Source: Lachnospiraceae bacterium
GTDB lineage: Bacteria; Bacillota; Clostridia; Lachnospirales; Lachnospiraceae
NCBI GenBank assembly: GCA_017543445.1
Contig: JAFYGB010000023.1
Coordinates: 1-36,989 of the forward strand
Reading direction: 5' to 3'
DNA length: 36,989 bases
Part shown: one piece after another, positions 3,182-8,502 of the stretch
Layout of the letters: the number at the start of each line of letters is the position of its first letter
Position numbering within the stretch: the stretch's first letter is position 1
Notes under the pieces: model-generated
The model's database searches: none
What the model was told of the DNA's origin: nothing
Seen by the model: the letters and a program-made list of their open reading frames with translations, nothing else
Made by a program: the position numbers and the translations under genes

Positions 3182-4378
3182 ATGGCAAAGAGAATTGTAC
3201 TTGCCGGTGCATGCCGTACGGCGATCGGCACAATGGGCGGCTCACTCAGCACGACTCCCGCAGCGGAACTGGGCGCTATCGTTATCAAAGAAGCGATCAA
3301 AAGAGCAGGCGTTCCCGCAGAAGCAGTTGATCATGTATACATGGGTTGCGTTATCCAGGCTGGTCTGGGTCAGAACGTAGCTCGTCAGGCATCCATTAAG
3401 GCTGGTCTTCCGGTGGAGACTCCTGCCGTAACCGTTAACGTAGTTTGCGGTTCCGGTCTGAACTGCGTAAACATGGCAGCTCAGATGATCCAGGCAGGCG
3501 ATGCCGATATCGTAGTAGCAGGTGGTATGGAGAACATGTCCATGGCTCCGTACGCGATCCCGAACGGTCGTTTTGGTTACAGAATGACATGGCCGAGCCA
3601 GAGCCAGGGCGCTTTGGTCGACACCATGGTAAATGATGCTCTTTGGGATGCATTCAACGGTTACCACATGATCCAGACTGCAGATAATGTAGCAGAGAAG
3701 TGGGGCCTGACCCGTGAAGAGCTCGATGAGTTCGCACTCAAGAGCCAGCTGAAGGCTGAGAAGGCTCAGCAGACCGGCGCATTCGACGATGAGATCGTTC
3801 CGGTCATGGTTAAGAAGAAGAAAGAAATGGTTGAGTTCAAGGTCGATGAAGGCCCGCGTCCGGGTTCCACCATCGAAGGCCTTGCAAAGCTTCGCCCGAT
3901 CAACCCGAACGGCGTAGTTACCGCAGGTAACGCTTCCGGTATCAACGACGGCGCTGCAGCGATCGTTCTGATGACCGAAGAGAAGGCAAAAGAACTCGGC
4001 GTAACTCCTATGGCATATTTCGTAGCAGGCGCTCTGGGCGGCGTAGATCCGTCCATCATGGGCGTAGGTCCGGTTCCCGCAACTCGCAAGGCTATGGCGA
4101 AGTGTGGTTACAAGATCGAAGATTTCGATATCATCGAGGCAAATGAGGCATTTGCCGCTCAGTCCGTTGCAGTCGGCAAGGATCTGGGCATCGACGTTGA
4201 TAAGCAGCTGAACCCGAACGGCGGCGCGATCGCGCTGGGTCACCCGGTTGGTGCTTCAGGCGCTCGTATCCTCGTAACACTGCTTCACGAGATGGTGAAG
4301 AAGGATGCAAAGAAGGGTCTGGCTACCCTCTGCATCGGCGGTGGAATGGGATGCGCTACTATTGTAGAGCGTGACTAA
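3182..4378 (+). CDS. thlA: Acetyl-CoA acetyltransferase (thiolase)
   Basis: Condenses two acetyl-CoA to acetoacetyl-CoA, the entry step to butyrate. At 398 residues it has the usual length of biosynthetic thiolases. The nucleophile Cys89 ([10 protein letters not shown]), His354 ([10 protein letters not shown]) and the second active-site Cys384 (CIGGGMGC) are all present. The start has a strong ribosome site (CGGAGG) just upstream. First gene of the butyryl-CoA operon behind a Rex operator. Codon use is strongly biased (AAG lysine; GGT, GCA and GTA frequent), as in highly expressed genes. A gap of about 200 nt with two hairpins separates it from crt, so thiolase may be made in excess of the downstream enzymes. 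Assignment certain; the symbol is by pathway context. Confidence 0.97.
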
Positions 4379-4405
4379 TCAACTGAATATTTGGTATACT
4401 GACCG

Positions 4406-4433
4406 GGCGGAAGGCAAGTTTTTGCTTTCTGCC
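4406..4433 (+). other. Hairpin between thl and crt
   Basis: A 10-bp stem (GGCGGAAGGC with GCTTTCTGCC, two G-U pairs) and an 8-nt loop lie shortly after the thl stop. No T-tract follows, so it is more likely an mRNA 3'-end stabiliser or processing structure than a complete terminator. Confidence 0.5.
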
Positions 4434-4464
4434 TCGTGTCGTGTTAAAACGGAAATTGCGTTTC

Positions 4465-4489
4465 AAATCCGCAAATGGATTTATTTTTT
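4465..4489 (+). terminator. Weak terminator-like hairpin between thl and crt
   Basis: A 6-bp A/T-rich stem (AAATCC / GGATTT, loop GCAAAT) is followed by ATTTTTT. It is weak, so partial read-through into crt is expected. A TTGACA at 4496-4501 follows, but I see no convincing -10 at the right distance. Confidence 0.4.
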
Positions 4490-4579
4490 CAGAACTTGAC
4501 ATGCAGTGTGTCCCGTTCGAAAAACATTTCACGCGTATGGGGCGTTGAAAGGTTCGCCTTGTACCAGAAAGGATAAAAA

Positions 4580-5404
4580 ATGGATTACATTCTTTATGAA
4601 GCAGCAGGCGGTGTTGGCGTTATCACCATCAACCGTCCGAAGGCGCTGAACGCGCTGAACAGCCAGGTTCTCGATGAACTTAACGAGACTCTGGATCAGG
4701 TGGATCTGTCCACCGTTCGCTGTCTGATCCTGACCGGCGCAGGCGAGAAATCGTTTGTTGCAGGCGCAGACATCGGCGAGATGAGCACTCTGACGAAGGC
4801 AGAGGGCGAGGCATTCGGTAAGAAGGGCAACGACGTGTTCCGCAAGCTCGAGACATTCCCCATCCCCGTGATCGCAGCCGTAAACGGCTTCGCACTCGGC
4901 GGCGGTTGTGAGATCTCCATGAGCTGTGACATCCGTCTCTGCTCGGACAATGCAGTATTCGGTCAGCCGGAAGTAGGCCTCGGCATCACACCGGGCTTCG
5001 GCGGCACACAGAGACTGGCTCGTCTGGTAGGCGCAGGCATGGCGAAGCAGCTGATCTACACAGCAAGAAACATCAAAGCTCCGGAAGCGTACCGCATTGG
5101 CCTCGTTAACGAGGTATTCTCCGCAGAAGTTGACGAAGCGGGTAATGTTACAAAGACTGCGCAGGAAGTTCTCCTTGCAGCAGCTAAGAAGATGGCGGCT
5201 ACCATCGCGAAGAACGCTCCGATCGCAGTTCGCAACTGCAAGAAGGCGATCAACGAGGGCCTGGACGCAAATATGGACGACGCGATCGTGATCGAAGAGA
5301 AGCTCTTCGGCGATTGCTTCGAGACACAGGACCAGGTTTACGGAATGGCATTCTTCCTCGATAAGAATAAAGACAAGGTTAAAGAGCCGTTTAAGAACGC
5401 TTAA
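4580..5404 (+). CDS. crt: 3-hydroxybutyryl-CoA dehydratase (crotonase)
   Basis: Enoyl-CoA hydratase/isomerase family enzyme. It removes water from 3-hydroxybutyryl-CoA to give crotonyl-CoA. The oxyanion-hole segment (FVAGADIGEM, residues 59-68) and both catalytic glutamates are present: Glu111 (GGGCEISMS) and Glu131 (GQPEVGLG). At 274 residues it is slightly longer than the usual 258-262, mainly from a short insertion (EVDEAGNVTKTAQ) in the C-terminal part. Ribosome site AGAAAGGA lies upstream of the ATG. Second gene of the butyrate operon. Confidence 0.95.
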   Translation: MDYILYEAAGGVGVITINRPKALNALNSQVLDELNETLDQVDLSTVRCLILTGAGEKSFVAGADIGEMSTLTKAEGEAFGKKGNDVFRKLETFPIPVIAAVNGFALGGGCEISMSCDIRLCSDNAVFGQPEVGLGITPGFGGTQRLARLVGAGMAKQLIYTARNIKAPEAYRIGLVNEVFSAEVDEAGNVTKTAQEVLLAAAKKMAATIAKNAPIAVRNCKKAINEGLDANMDDAIVIEEKLFGDCFETQDQVYGMAFFLDKNKDKVKEPFKNA

Positions 5405-5461
5405 TTGATCTGCTATTTCACATTTCCAAATCATATATAAATACATTTAGGAGGTACTATC

Positions 5462-6307
5462 ATGAAGGTAGGCGTTATTGGTGCCGGCACAATGGGTTCC
5501 GGTATTGCTCAGGCATTTGCCATGACAGAAGGTTACGAGGTTTGTCTTTGCGATATTAAGCAGGAGTTCGCTGACGGCGGAAAGGCTAAGATCGCTAAGA
5601 ATATGGCATTCCTGGTAAAGAAGGAGAAGATCACACAGGAGCAGGCAGATGCAATTCTGGCAAAGGTTACGACCGGCCTGAAGGATATTTGTACAGATTG
5701 CGACCTCATCGTTGAGGCAGCTCTGGAAGATATGGCTATTAAGAAGCAGACATTCAAAGAACTCGAAGAGATCTGCACAAAGGAAGATGTTATCTTCGCT
5801 ACCAACACTTCCTCTCTTTCCATCACCGAGATCGGCGCAGGCCTGAAGCATCCGGTGATCGGTATGCACTTCTTCAACCCTGCTGACCGTATGAAGCTCG
5901 TTGAAGTTATCGCAGGACTTAACACACCGGCTGCTACCGTAGACCGCATCAAGGCGATCTCCGAAGAGATCGGCAAGACTCCGGTTCAGGTTGCTGAGGC
6001 TCCCGGATTTGTTGTTAACCGTATCCTGATCCCGATGATCAATGAAGCGATCGGTATCTATGCAGAAGGCATCGCAAGCGTTGAGGGTATCGACCAGGCT
6101 ATGATGCTCGGTGCGAACCACCCGATGGGCCCGCTGGCTCTCGGCGACCTGGTAGGTCTGGATATCGTTCTTGCGATCATGAACGTTCTTTACAGCGAGA
6201 CCGGGGACTCCAAGTATCGTCCTCACACTCTTCTTAAGAAGATGGTTCGTGGCGGTAAGCTCGGAAGAAAGACCGGTATCGGTTTCTACGATTATACCAA
6301 CAAGTAA
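5462..6307 (+). CDS. hbd: 3-hydroxybutyryl-CoA dehydrogenase
   Basis: Reduces acetoacetyl-CoA to 3-hydroxybutyryl-CoA with NAD(P)H. 281 residues, the usual length for the clostridial stand-alone enzyme. The N-terminus has the Rossmann motif GAGTMGSG (residues 7-14). The catalytic pair is visible as His136 (GMHFFNPADR) and Glu148 (KLVEVIAG), and GFVVNRIL marks the C-terminal dimerisation domain. A strong AGGAGG ribosome site precedes the ATG. Third gene of the operon, 57 nt after crt. Confidence 0.97.
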   Translation: MKVGVIGAGTMGSGIAQAFAMTEGYEVCLCDIKQEFADGGKAKIAKNMAFLVKKEKITQEQADAILAKVTTGLKDICTDCDLIVEAALEDMAIKKQTFKELEEICTKEDVIFATNTSSLSITEIGAGLKHPVIGMHFFNPADRMKLVEVIAGLNTPAATVDRIKAISEEIGKTPVQVAEAPGFVVNRILIPMINEAIGIYAEGIASVEGIDQAMMLGANHPMGPLALGDLVGLDIVLAIMNVLYSETGDSKYRPHTLLKKMVRGGKLGRKTGIGFYDYTNK

Positions 6308-6340
6308 GATTAAATAGATTATTTCGGAGGAAACAAAATC

Positions 6341-7510
6341 ATGGATTTTACATTGAGCAAAGAACATGAGATGGTGCGCACCCTGTTTAAGGAATTCGCA
6401 CAGAATGAGGTTAAGCCTCTTGCTCAGGAAGTGGATGAAACAGAGAACTTCCCCAGAGAAACAGTTGAAAAGATGGCAAAGCTCGGCTTCATGGGCATCC
6501 CGATCCCGAAGGAGTACGGCGGCCAGGGTTGCGATATTTTGACCTATGCTATGTGCGTTGAGGAGCTGTCCAAGGTTTGCGGTACCACAGGCGTTATCGT
6601 ATCCGCACACACTTCTCTGTGCTGCGACCCGATCCTTACATTCGGTACGGAAGAGCAGAAGCAGAAGTACCTCGTTCCGCTTGCAAAGGGCGAGAAGCTC
6701 GGTGCTTTCGGTCTTACTGAGCCGGGGGCAGGTACCGACGCTCAGGGCCAGCAGACGAAGGCTGTTCTGGACGGCGACGAGTACGTTCTGAACGGCTCCA
6801 AGATCTTCATTACCAATGGTAAGGAAGCTGACGTTTATGTTATCTTCGCGATCACAGGCGTTACAACAGACGCTAAGGGTCGTTCTAAGAAGACCATCTC
6901 CGCATTCATCGTGGAGAAGGGTACACCCGGATTTACATTCGGCGTAAAAGAGAAGAAGATGGGTATCCGCGGATCATCCACTTACGAACTCATTTTCCAG
7001 GATTGCCGCATCCCGAAGGCAAACCTTCTGGGCCGCGATGGCGAGGGCTTCAAGATCGCCATGCATACACTGGACGGCGGACGTATCGGTATCGCTGCAC
7101 AGGCTCTGGGCCTCGCTGAGGGCGCTCTGGACAACACCATCGCTTACACGAAGGAAAGAAAGCAGTTCGGTAAGGCGATCGCTGCATTCCAGAATACACA
7201 GTTCCAGATCGCTGATATGGCAACCAAGTGCCAGGCTGCTCAGTATCTTGTATACGCTGCTGCTCGCAAGAAGGATGAGTATCAGAAGGATCACAAGACC
7301 GTTTACAGCGTAGAAGCAGCTATGGCTAAGCTTTACGCAGCAGAGGTTGCGATGGAAGTTACCACAAAGGCAGTTCAGCTTCACGGTGGTTACGGCTACA
7401 CCAGAGAGTATGATGTAGAGCGTATGATGCGTGACGCAAAGATCACTGAGATCTACGAAGGAACCAGCGAAGTTCAGAGAATGGTTATCTCTGCTGCGTT
7501 ACTGAAGTAA
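6341..7510 (+). CDS. bcd: Butyryl-CoA dehydrogenase (short-chain acyl-CoA dehydrogenase)
   Basis: FAD flavoenzyme that reduces crotonyl-CoA to butyryl-CoA. 389 residues. The family's flavin/substrate motifs are present (FGLTEPGAGTDAQGQ and FITNGKEAD), and the catalytic base is Glu373 in IYEGTSEVQR, 16 residues from the C-terminus as in characterised butyryl-CoA dehydrogenases. Ribosome site CGGAGG lies upstream. In clostridia this enzyme forms a complex with EtfAB that couples NADH oxidation to both crotonyl-CoA and ferredoxin (electron bifurcation). The adjacent etfBA pair supports that here, but it is an inference from family and context. A 209-nt gap with a structured element separates it from etfB. 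Confidence 0.97.
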   Translation: MDFTLSKEHEMVRTLFKEFAQNEVKPLAQEVDETENFPRETVEKMAKLGFMGIPIPKEYGGQGCDILTYAMCVEELSKVCGTTGVIVSAHTSLCCDPILTFGTEEQKQKYLVPLAKGEKLGAFGLTEPGAGTDAQGQQTKAVLDGDEYVLNGSKIFITNGKEADVYVIFAITGVTTDAKGRSKKTISAFIVEKGTPGFTFGVKEKKMGIRGSSTYELIFQDCRIPKANLLGRDGEGFKIAMHTLDGGRIGIAAQALGLAEGALDNTIAYTKERKQFGKAIAAFQNTQFQIADMATKCQAAQYLVYAAARKKDEYQKDHKTVYSVEAAMAKLYAAEVAMEVTTKAVQLHGGYGYTREYDVERMMRDAKITEIYEGTSEVQRMVISAALLK

Positions 7511-7514
7511 TTTG

Positions 7515-7682
7515 ATTGATACAAGGCTCGAAAAGTCCACGTAGCGAATGCTCGCATTCGCAGACGTGACCTTGAGAGCCGAACAAACATGAGCCGTACC
7601 GATTTCCGTAGGAAAGCGATAGGACGGCGAATGTTTGTAGGATTTCGAGAGCTTGAAAAGCGGAGAAATCCGTAGTATCAAT
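7515..7682 (+). other. 168-nt structured element: closing stem plus three hairpins
   Basis: A closing stem ATTGATAC/GTATCAAT (7515-7522/7675-7682) encloses three hairpins. Arm 1 pairs 7525-7529 with 7576-7580, then 7535-7542 with 7564-7570 (one bulged C), then 7545-7550 with 7555-7560, tetraloop CTCG. Arm 2 pairs 7583-7590 with 7631-7638 (8 bp), a symmetric GA/GA internal loop, 7593-7597 with 7624-7628, then 7603-7607 with 7611-7615. Arm 3 pairs 7640-7646 with 7665-7671, a GA-rich internal loop, then 7651-7654 with 7658-7661. Nearly every base is accounted for, and there is no ORF with a start signal. GTAAT occurs just outside both ends (7507-7511 and 7683-7687), weakly suggesting a target duplication. 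It could be a structured RNA inside the operon mRNA or a small mobile palindromic repeat. I do not recognise the family. Confidence 0.75.
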
Positions 7683-7719
7683 GTAATACACTAAAAGAAT
7701 AATTAAGGAGCGTAAGATT

Positions 7720-8502
7720 GTGAAGATCATAGTATGTATCAAGCAGGTACCCGATACAAAGGGTGGCGTAAAGTTTAATCCTGACGGAACATTGAACCGT
7801 GCTGCTATGCTTACCATCATGAACCCGGACGACAAAGCCGGACTGGAAGCAGCACTTAGATTAAAAGATCAGTATGGAGCAGAAGTAACCGTTATCACCA
7901 TGGGCCTTCCGAAGGCTGAGGAAGTTCTTCGTGAAGCATTGGCCATGGGTGCTGATAAGGGCATCCTTGTTACCGACCGTGTACTCGGTGGCGCAGACAC
8001 ATGGGCTACTTCTTCCACACTTGCAGGTGCGATCCGCAACCTGGATTACGATTTGATCATTACCGGACGTCAGGCGATCGACGGCGATACCGCACAGGTT
8101 GGTCCGCAGATCTCCGAGCATTTGAACATTCCGGTTATCTCCTATGCACAGAAGATCGAGATCGACGGAGACTCCGTGATCGTTGAGCGTCAGTACGACG
8201 ACCGTTACCATGTGGTAAAGGCTAAGATGCCTTGCCTCATCACGGCTCTGGCAGAGCTCAATGCACCTCGTTACATGACTCCGGGCGGCATCTTCGATGC
8301 TTTCAAGGCAGACATCACTGTATGGGGCAGAGCAAACCTGGTAGATGTTGATGACTCTAACCTCGGTCTGAAGGGTTCACCCACACAGATCGCAAAGGCT
8401 TCCGATAAGGTACGTAAGGGCACAGGCGAGAAGGTTAATCTGGACGCAGATGCTTCCGTTGAGTACATTGTCGGCAAGTTGAAAGAAAAGCACGTAATTT
8501 AA
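7720..8502 (+). CDS. etfB: Electron transfer flavoprotein, beta subunit
   Basis: Small subunit of the Etf heterodimer that passes electrons to butyryl-CoA dehydrogenase. 260 residues, normal for the family. It opens with the typical MKIIVCIKQVPD and has the nucleotide-binding segment TGRQAIDGDTAQVGPQ around residue 110-125. The start codon is GTG, placed 9 nt after AAGGAG (7705-7710); no ATG gives a better N-terminus. In clostridial Bcd-Etf complexes this subunit carries the bifurcating FAD, and the gene order supports that type. Confidence 0.97.
   Translation: MKIIVCIKQVPDTKGGVKFNPDGTLNRAAMLTIMNPDDKAGLEAALRLKDQYGAEVTVITMGLPKAEEVLREALAMGADKGILVTDRVLGGADTWATSSTLAGAIRNLDYDLIITGRQAIDGDTAQVGPQISEHLNIPVISYAQKIEIDGDSVIVERQYDDRYHVVKAKMPCLITALAELNAPRYMTPGGIFDAFKADITVWGRANLVDVDDSNLGLKGSPTQIAKASDKVRKGTGEKVNLDADASVEYIVGKLKEKHVI

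Follow-up and report, generated by a model that had tools for sequence, protein, structure and literature searches.

Clostridiales-1 RNA (Rfam RF01699) is the described family closest to the element studied here. The family was listed by Weinberg et al. in 2010 in a table in which its entry, "y n n," denotes a probable RNA that is non-cis-regulatory and not a switch; it is named once in the main text, occupies a single line of the table, and is given no function there (PMC2864571). Mobility, duplications, and stop-codon placement do not figure in that listing (PMC2864571), and no report of Clostridiales-1 mobility was found in the literature consulted on structured RNAs or miniature inverted-repeat transposable elements (MITEs) in Lachnospiraceae and Clostridia. 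Two other groups of bacterial repeats are comparable. Among the bcr1 to bcr18 repeats of the Bacillus cereus group, some are MITE-like, dispersed, and located in untranslated regions and between operon genes, and bcr10 and bcr18 have conserved secondary structures (PMC3446304). The presence of bcr3 in B. cereus transcripts accompanies slower decay (tabulated as 3.6 versus 2.5, P 5.6E-04), a link that is absent for bcr1 and bcr2 (PMC3446304). The bcr repeats belong, however, to another host group, no stop-codon anchoring is mentioned in the description consulted, and they are likened to the present element by description only (PMC3446304). NEMIS/Correia, ERIC, RUP, and other bacterial MITEs are of similar length (about 100 to 200 bp) and have terminal inverted repeats, target duplications, and stable transcript structures, and NEMIS transcripts have been proposed as RNase III targets (PMC2229807). 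These MITEs are described in the same source as long stem-loops, with two arms and a linker in the case of CIR (PMC2229807), whereas Clostridiales-1 is a three-arm domain that is closed by a stem and has G-A internal loops that are conserved, and no target duplication was detected for it in the genus considered here.

The window, that is, the whole stretch of DNA analyzed, comprises 36,989 nucleotides from a Lachnospiraceae bacterium (contig JAFYGB010000023.1 of assembly GCA_017543445.1). The covariance model of RF01699 matches positions 7517 to 7680 with 99.9 bits against a gathering cutoff of 48, covering model positions 1 to 166 of 166, and this is the single Rfam match at the gathering threshold across the whole window. 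The element, which shares both the full length of this model and the three-arm architecture of the family, is almost certainly a copy of Clostridiales-1 RNA, and the remark in the preliminary description that it knew of no described element of this shape is thus not supported. Its structural claims hold well. The minimum-free-energy fold of the plus strand at 7515 to 7682 reproduces the 8-bp closing stem (AUUGAUAC/GUAUCAAU) around three hairpins, and both the symmetric GA/GA loop of arm 2 and the GA-rich 4/3 loop of arm 3 are present (Table 1). The plus-strand energy of −70.9 kcal/mol is reached by 0 of 200 dinucleotide shuffles (−39.3 kcal/mol, SD 3.4; z, −9.28), and the minus strand is nearly as stable (−68.4 kcal/mol; z, −8.75), so that the 168-nt element is far from a chance fold on either strand. 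The distal hairpin of arm 1 differs in sequence in three congeners (G003, G001, and G005). An intrinsic terminator was rejected because a consensus scan found no terminator-like site in the gap between bcd and etfB (7500 to 7720); the sole such site in 4300 to 7800 lies at 6519, within bcd. The same scan found neither a promoter-like nor a terminator-like site on the element's own strand inside the element, and one promoter-like site nearby, at 7724 to 7696 on the minus strand.

Table 1. Coordinates of the element, its parts, and its neighbors in the window, and of type B examples in other records
Feature	Position	Strand	Basis
Whole element, Clostridiales-1 RNA, three hairpins in a closing stem	7515..7682	+	Fold; covariance-model match 7517-7680
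Closing stem P1, 5' strand AUUGAUAC, contains TGATAC	7515..7522	+	Fold
Arm 1, distal hairpin variable	7525..7580	+	Fold
Arm 2, internal loop UGAG/CGAA (GA opposite GA), conserved	7583..7638	+	Fold
Arm 3, GA-rich internal loop GAGA/GGA	7640..7671	+	Fold
Closing stem P1, 3' strand GUAUCAAU	7675..7682	+	Fold
bcd stop codon TAA, 6 nt ahead of the element's model start	7508..7510	+	
bcd, upstream gene, 389 aa	6341..7510	+	ORF; name from preliminary description
etfB, downstream gene, GTG start	7720..8502	+	ORF; name from preliminary description
AAGGAG, ribosome-binding-like sequence ahead of etfB	7705-7710		By eye
Type B examples, ~120-130 nt, other Lachnospiraceae records	L239:3780-3909, L255:3827-3952, L299:3822-3951, plus 13 further bcd-etfB loci		

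The preliminary description had proposed a search for copies elsewhere, and the element proved to be repetitive, with 9 matches in its own genome, 8 of them above the cutoff, and 63 in the genus, distributed over all six genomes, its own included. In a sample of the family, 83 of 150 genomes have a match and 64 have one above the cutoff; many carry at least 17 copies, the per-genome counts in this sample being lower bounds. The class-wide sample yielded matches in 9 of 291 genomes, 7 of which belong to the same family. This contrast between 83/150 and 9/291 genomes agrees with the Clostridiales/Lachnospiraceae lineage of RF01699, as do the nearest named loci, which come from metagenome-assembled genomes of Lachnospiraceae.

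Outside the genus of the window, copies of Clostridiales-1 still have the structure expected of a MITE, a non-autonomous DNA transposon. In genome G043, most of the 17 copies have a 154-nt core in common, after which comes a tail hairpin of about 30 nt. The entire unit spans GATACCAGGGTCAAAAGG to CCTTTTGACCCCTACATC, and these inverted ends are flanked on both sides by an AT-rich word that is 7 bp or slightly longer. Clostridiales-1 unit ends are of the GAT..CAGGGTCAAAAG type, and a search of G043 that allowed up to two mismatches found 106 instances of the terminal-repeat motif TTTTGACCCCTACATC, against 4 of the reversed pattern. Target-site duplications were scored as direct repeats ending at the unit's first GAT, with one base of play, and 3' flanks shuffled among the copies served as the control. 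The set from other genera held 109 copies from 30 genomes, 108 of which were usable here (one lacked a flank). A direct repeat of at least 7 nt is present in 56 of these 108 copies, compared with a mean of 5.3 and a maximum of 12 after shuffling, a rate that applies to high-scoring and probably young copies since the set contains the best-scoring ones listed rather than a random draw. The duplicated words mainly read ATNNNAT, and the exceptions, such as CTTACTT, are altered jointly in both copies, for which reason the duplication is read as 7 bp with a preferred target. In other genera, target-site duplications and, as exemplified by G043, terminal inverted repeats are therefore both present, and these sequence features indicate that Clostridiales-1 very probably spread through the family in the manner of a transposon. 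The 8-bp closing stem is the sole inverted-end feature seen in the window copy.

Several further observations concern the distribution and arrangement of the units. G043 also has very short palindromic units, about 37 and 70 nt long (L141, L132, and L142), whose ends and 7-bp duplications are those of the longer units. A second full or partial copy follows directly after the first in L098 (contig C58 of G004), L178, L206, L207, and L209 and, as judged by eye, in L018. A plasmid search with the window element gave no match; three places on plasmid pNP243 of Butyrivibrio fibrisolvens D1 (L228), including 63102 to 63293, match the G043 element, and an IS66 gene lies nearby. Eleven unannotated fecal contigs labeled "Bacteriophage sp." (H1 to H11) match the G043 element in whole or in part; they may be bacterial, or they may be phages carrying copies of the element.

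No element combining a transposase with matching ends was found among loci of PF00872, PF01610, PF12762, and PF01609. PF00872 (IS256) was detected in 4 of 10 genomes, PF01610 (ISL3) in 1 of 14 and there below the cutoff, PF12762 (IS1595) in 0 of 10, and PF01609 (DDE_Tnp_1) in 9 of 10. None of the 14 PF00872/PF01610 loci has a matching end, and none of the 30 PF01609 loci has a matching end pair, with a scattered partial match in 5. A 1.86-kb stretch of G043 between two terminal-repeat motifs was rejected as an autonomous element: its genes look by eye to be of the housekeeping type, and the motifs are a chance pair. No transposase was recognized by eye in the ORF starts of nine G043 stretches near terminal-repeat motifs. 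Separately, a 355-aa gene at L147:965-2032 (G043), beside a terminal-repeat motif, resembles a tyrosine recombinase by eye.

Within the window's genus, the analyses were based on the best 57 of the 63 matches, with the 6 weakest left out. Sorted by their flanks, these copies fall into 18 groups with at least two members, and 8 copies stand alone; orthologous copies thus recur across species. The bcd-etfB site carries the element or a remnant of it in 6 of 6 genomes. In G003, G001, and G005, the last sense codon of bcd is directly followed by the element, whose own TGA provides the bcd stop. In G004 and G002 (L041 and L042), the copy is part-deleted: its middle, about half of the element, is gone, which leaves a remnant of about 81 nt, and the deletion falls, by eye in the alignment, between two GCGAATG repeats; this loss in two of the six genomes indicates that the element is dispensable there. 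Two other junctions of the butyrate operon vary in occupancy. The hbd-bcd site is filled in G004 alone of the five genomes compared, and at the thl-crt site G004 and G001 have a copy and the aligned sequences of G000, G002, and G003 have none; an RF01699 match on contig C193 of G005 groups by its flanks with the thl-crt copies and is unaligned there. Both sites thus show the presence/absence variation at orthologous positions that is expected of MITEs. The thl-crt gap of the window itself (4379 to 4579) has no element and contains a long stretch that is conserved among congeners and in which parts look hairpin-like or T-rich by eye.

These results support in part an earlier suggestion that the element might be a small mobile repeat bounded by GTAAT. 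Mobility is borne out for the family by the terminal repeats, the 7-nt duplications, and the filled and empty sites. The letters GTAAT do occur near both ends of the window copy, but the first instance consists of the last letters of bcd together with its stop codon. A GTAAT/GTAAT target duplication was rejected because the stretch is absent in G003, G005, and G001 and because flanking duplications of at least 7 nt occur in 0 of 54 genus copies (shuffled mean, 0.6; 3 of the 57 lacked flanks).

The placement of the element relative to genes was assessed by looking for stop codons between −3 and +8 nt of the element's 5' end that close an open frame of 100 codons or more; the antisense mirror was the control. 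In the genus, 40 of 53 copies have such a stop, all at −3 to +6 and with the upstream gene in the sense orientation, compared with 1 of 53 in the mirror (4 of the 57 copies lacked flanks). Counted per independent site, the figures are 19 of 26 versus 1 of 26; the other 7 of the 26 sites are not stop-adjacent. TGA is the stop codon at 30 of the 40 stop-adjacent copies, and 14 of the 40 supply the upstream stop themselves through their first TGA; the window copy, with the TAA at 7508 to 7510, is not among these 14. In addition, pairing in the genus extends beyond the model across the closing stem: the first three positions outward are complementary in 49, 29, and 25 of 56 copies (1 of 57 lacked a flank), compared with 31.9, 19.8, and 17.8 for shuffled flanks. 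The extension uses site-specific bases and shows no clear excess beyond the third position. Outside the genus, anchoring is weak, at 19 of 105 copies versus 6 of 105 in the mirror (4 of the 109 lacked a flank at 100 codons), and G043 gives 2 of 17 versus 3 of 17 at 80 codons; the first position outside the closing stem is complementary in 51 of 108 copies versus 45.9 after shuffling. The upstream proteins at 10 of the 19 anchored genus sites were compared with NCBIfam, and 6 of the 10 have a match at 1e-10, to unrelated families that include ClpX, a branched-chain aminotransferase, a WcaJ-type transferase, and an aminopeptidase, some of the matches lying below the curated cutoff. No tie was found between the element and bcd/etfB in particular. 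For a riboswitch or leader, which would be expected ahead of one functional class of genes, the observations concern the upstream side, namely the anchoring at the upstream stop and the unrelated upstream proteins.

Covariation was analyzed with a model of our own (R2) built from 27 copies and applied to 80 selected loci that gave 100 distinct rows, in an alignment that was fitted to the model and therefore favors it. Two-sided changes occur at 36 of 36 model pairs, a number reached in 0 of 500 shuffles. Paired cells make up 95.9% of 3371 (shuffled, 75.9%), and two-sided changes are found in 574 cells (shuffled, 123.8), whereas structures slid along the same alignment pair in 28 to 43% of cells. 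The proposal of a conserved structured RNA with compensatory changes among relatives is thereby upheld, as all 36 pairs covary.

Our preferred reading, held with modest confidence, is that the element is a mobile structured element that is kept as an intercistronic mRNA insulator. Its mobility is well supported. From the sense placement, the stop-codon anchoring, the site-adapted stem, and the conserved G-A motifs, we infer that genus copies are kept for an effect at the RNA level; the partial deletion in two of six genomes, the weak anchoring elsewhere, and the small number of G-U pairs call for caution on this effect. The element would arrive as a selfish insert, and copies would be kept where they are least harmful or somewhat useful, as a compact RNA domain in an intercistronic mRNA. 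A translating ribosome would stop at the codon in or beside the closing stem, and the three arms behind it, held by the G-A motifs, could protect both the upstream message and the untranslated stretch against nuclease attack. The arms might also insulate the next ribosome-binding site, so that neighboring cistrons would decay or be translated independently, which is the least certain step. A role of the element in mRNA processing or stability is possible, and bcr3 offers the closest tested precedent found (PMC3446304).

The strongest alternative, which is possible though less probable, is that Clostridiales-1 is a purely selfish MITE with no host function, whose copies persist where they are harmless and whose fold serves mobility or merely follows from inverted repeats. 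The terminal repeats, the 7-bp duplications, and the high genus-specific copy numbers all suit such an element, as do the unrelated upstream genes, the part-deleted bcd-etfB copies in two of six genomes, and the weak or absent stop-codon anchoring outside the genus. This alternative is harder to reconcile with the sense placement at stops within the genus (40/53 versus 1/53 in the mirror), with the mismatched G-A loops, which by eye are conserved, with covariation in the interior of the fold as well as at the ends, and with genus closing stems that reach into each site's own flanks.

Pairing at the level of DNA offers a further alternative. REP/RAYT elements and attC sites are single-stranded DNA hairpin substrates, and the hairpins of Clostridiales-1 could likewise have been selected as DNA for a transposase or recombinase, and not as an RNA. 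The pair statistics leave room for this explanation. Very few cells in element alignment A5 hold a G-U pair (59 of 3371), A-C combinations are nearly as frequent (41 cells), and the genus alone has 10 G-U and 24 A-C among 972 cells; stability selection, whole-hairpin swapping between copies, or DNA pairing could each give this low G-U share. Orthologs were compared in 86 ordered pairs, every comparison being counted in both directions: of the two-sided changes, 371 preserved pairing and 85 disrupted it, but of the one-sided changes 304 disrupted pairing and just 102 preserved it. The preliminary description had named unconserved stems among relatives as evidence that would count against it; the stems are conserved, with the reservation that these one-sided changes mostly break pairs. 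Mobility and the good folding of both strands also fit a DNA substrate. On the other hand, the sense strand is the more stable one in 83 of 87 copies (25 of 27 from the genus, 58 of 60 from elsewhere), and the sense placement and stop anchoring of the genus copies speak against DNA hairpins. Duplications of 7 bp, moreover, are more typical of transposases that act on double strands than of those that act on single strands. Selection of the hairpins as single-stranded DNA is on balance distinctly unlikely.

Comparison of the same junction in other genomes revealed a second three-arm RNA, here called type B (Table 1). Among 80 etfB loci taken from named records, the bcd-etfB gap could be measured in 74, with a median of 67 nt; it is at most 110 nt in 55 and longer than 110 nt in 19. 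Two of the 19 long gaps hold Clostridiales-1 (L229 and L230), 15 hold type B, and 2 hold neither. Type B begins at the bcd stop codon and contains a GAGCGCG..CGCGAACGAG-like sequence in arm 2. It resembles Clostridiales-1 in its closing stem at the bcd stop, its position in the bcd-etfB gap, its three arms, and, by eye, a GAG/CGAA motif, whereas it is shorter (about 120 to 130 nt), reached Rfam's gathering threshold in none of the 15 loci tested, and lies mostly off stop codons in its dispersed copies (6 of 28 versus 2 of 28 in the mirror). A type B model built from 11 sequences found 21 matches in 81 sources, the 11 training rows included, and the remainder include weak matches, such as L242 at 25.8 bits. 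It matched 16 of 60 family genomes, with 27 matches in G030, those in G007 and G008 resting on Clostridiales-1 copies, and 33 of its own 38 pairs covary. Cross-matches between the two models were partial: Clostridiales-1 gave a sub-threshold match (30.7 to 35.6 bits) exactly at type B in 3 of 7 loci tested, the type B model found some Clostridiales-1 copies (best, 41.4 bits) and missed the window copy, and a reverse search gave 4 matches, all weak (E, 0.02 to 0.64). On these sequence comparisons, type B is probably a divergent relative of Clostridiales-1, although this is not proved.

In G030 and G032, type B copies (L312, L314, L325, L332, and L335) have long inverted ends, reading TGTAACTGTTCAGAGCC..GGCTCTGAACAGTTAC in several. 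These ends differ from those of Clostridiales-1, and the long-ended copies possibly constitute a second MITE-like group with the same fold. A broader idea, that Clostridiales-1 and type B form one superfamily of mobile three-arm RNAs in Lachnospiraceae, in some lineages of which a stop-overlapping stem provides a ribosome-operated switch or insulator delivered by transposition, is unlikely on present evidence, the weak stop anchoring of dispersed type B copies making it less probable.

The gap comparison also bears on the proposal that the RNA is a cis-regulator specific to bcd/etfBA that sets the stoichiometry of bcd versus etfBA. The presence of the element or a remnant at bcd-etfB in 6 of 6 genus genomes and of a related RNA in the same gap at 15 of 74 measured loci would suit such a regulator. 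However, the same RNA stands behind unrelated genes (ClpX, the aminopeptidase, and others) and, in some congeners, in the thl-crt and hbd-bcd gaps, the bcd-etfB copy is part-deleted in two of six genomes, and most other loci leave no room for the element, with a gap of no more than 110 nt in 55 of 74. A pathway-specific regulator was rejected on the grounds of the unrelated upstream genes at the 10 sites, and the stoichiometric role proposed earlier is very improbable. A trans-acting small RNA with its own promoter, which would agree with the "n" for cis-regulatory given to this probable RNA in the table of Weinberg et al. (PMC2864571), is hardly credible for a multicopy element with a variable arm 1, no promoter- or terminator-like site on its own strand, and its one nearby promoter-like site (7724 to 7696) on the minus strand.

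An RNA family cataloged in 2010 as a probable RNA now bears the marks of a transposable element, seen in 30 genomes of one bacterial family. The filled and empty sites in the butyrate operon of sister species make the function of the element directly testable, and the same junction holds a probable cousin, type B, in other genomes. If the stop-codon anchoring is functional, Clostridiales-1 would represent a mobile RNA domain that has been recruited to operon junctions.
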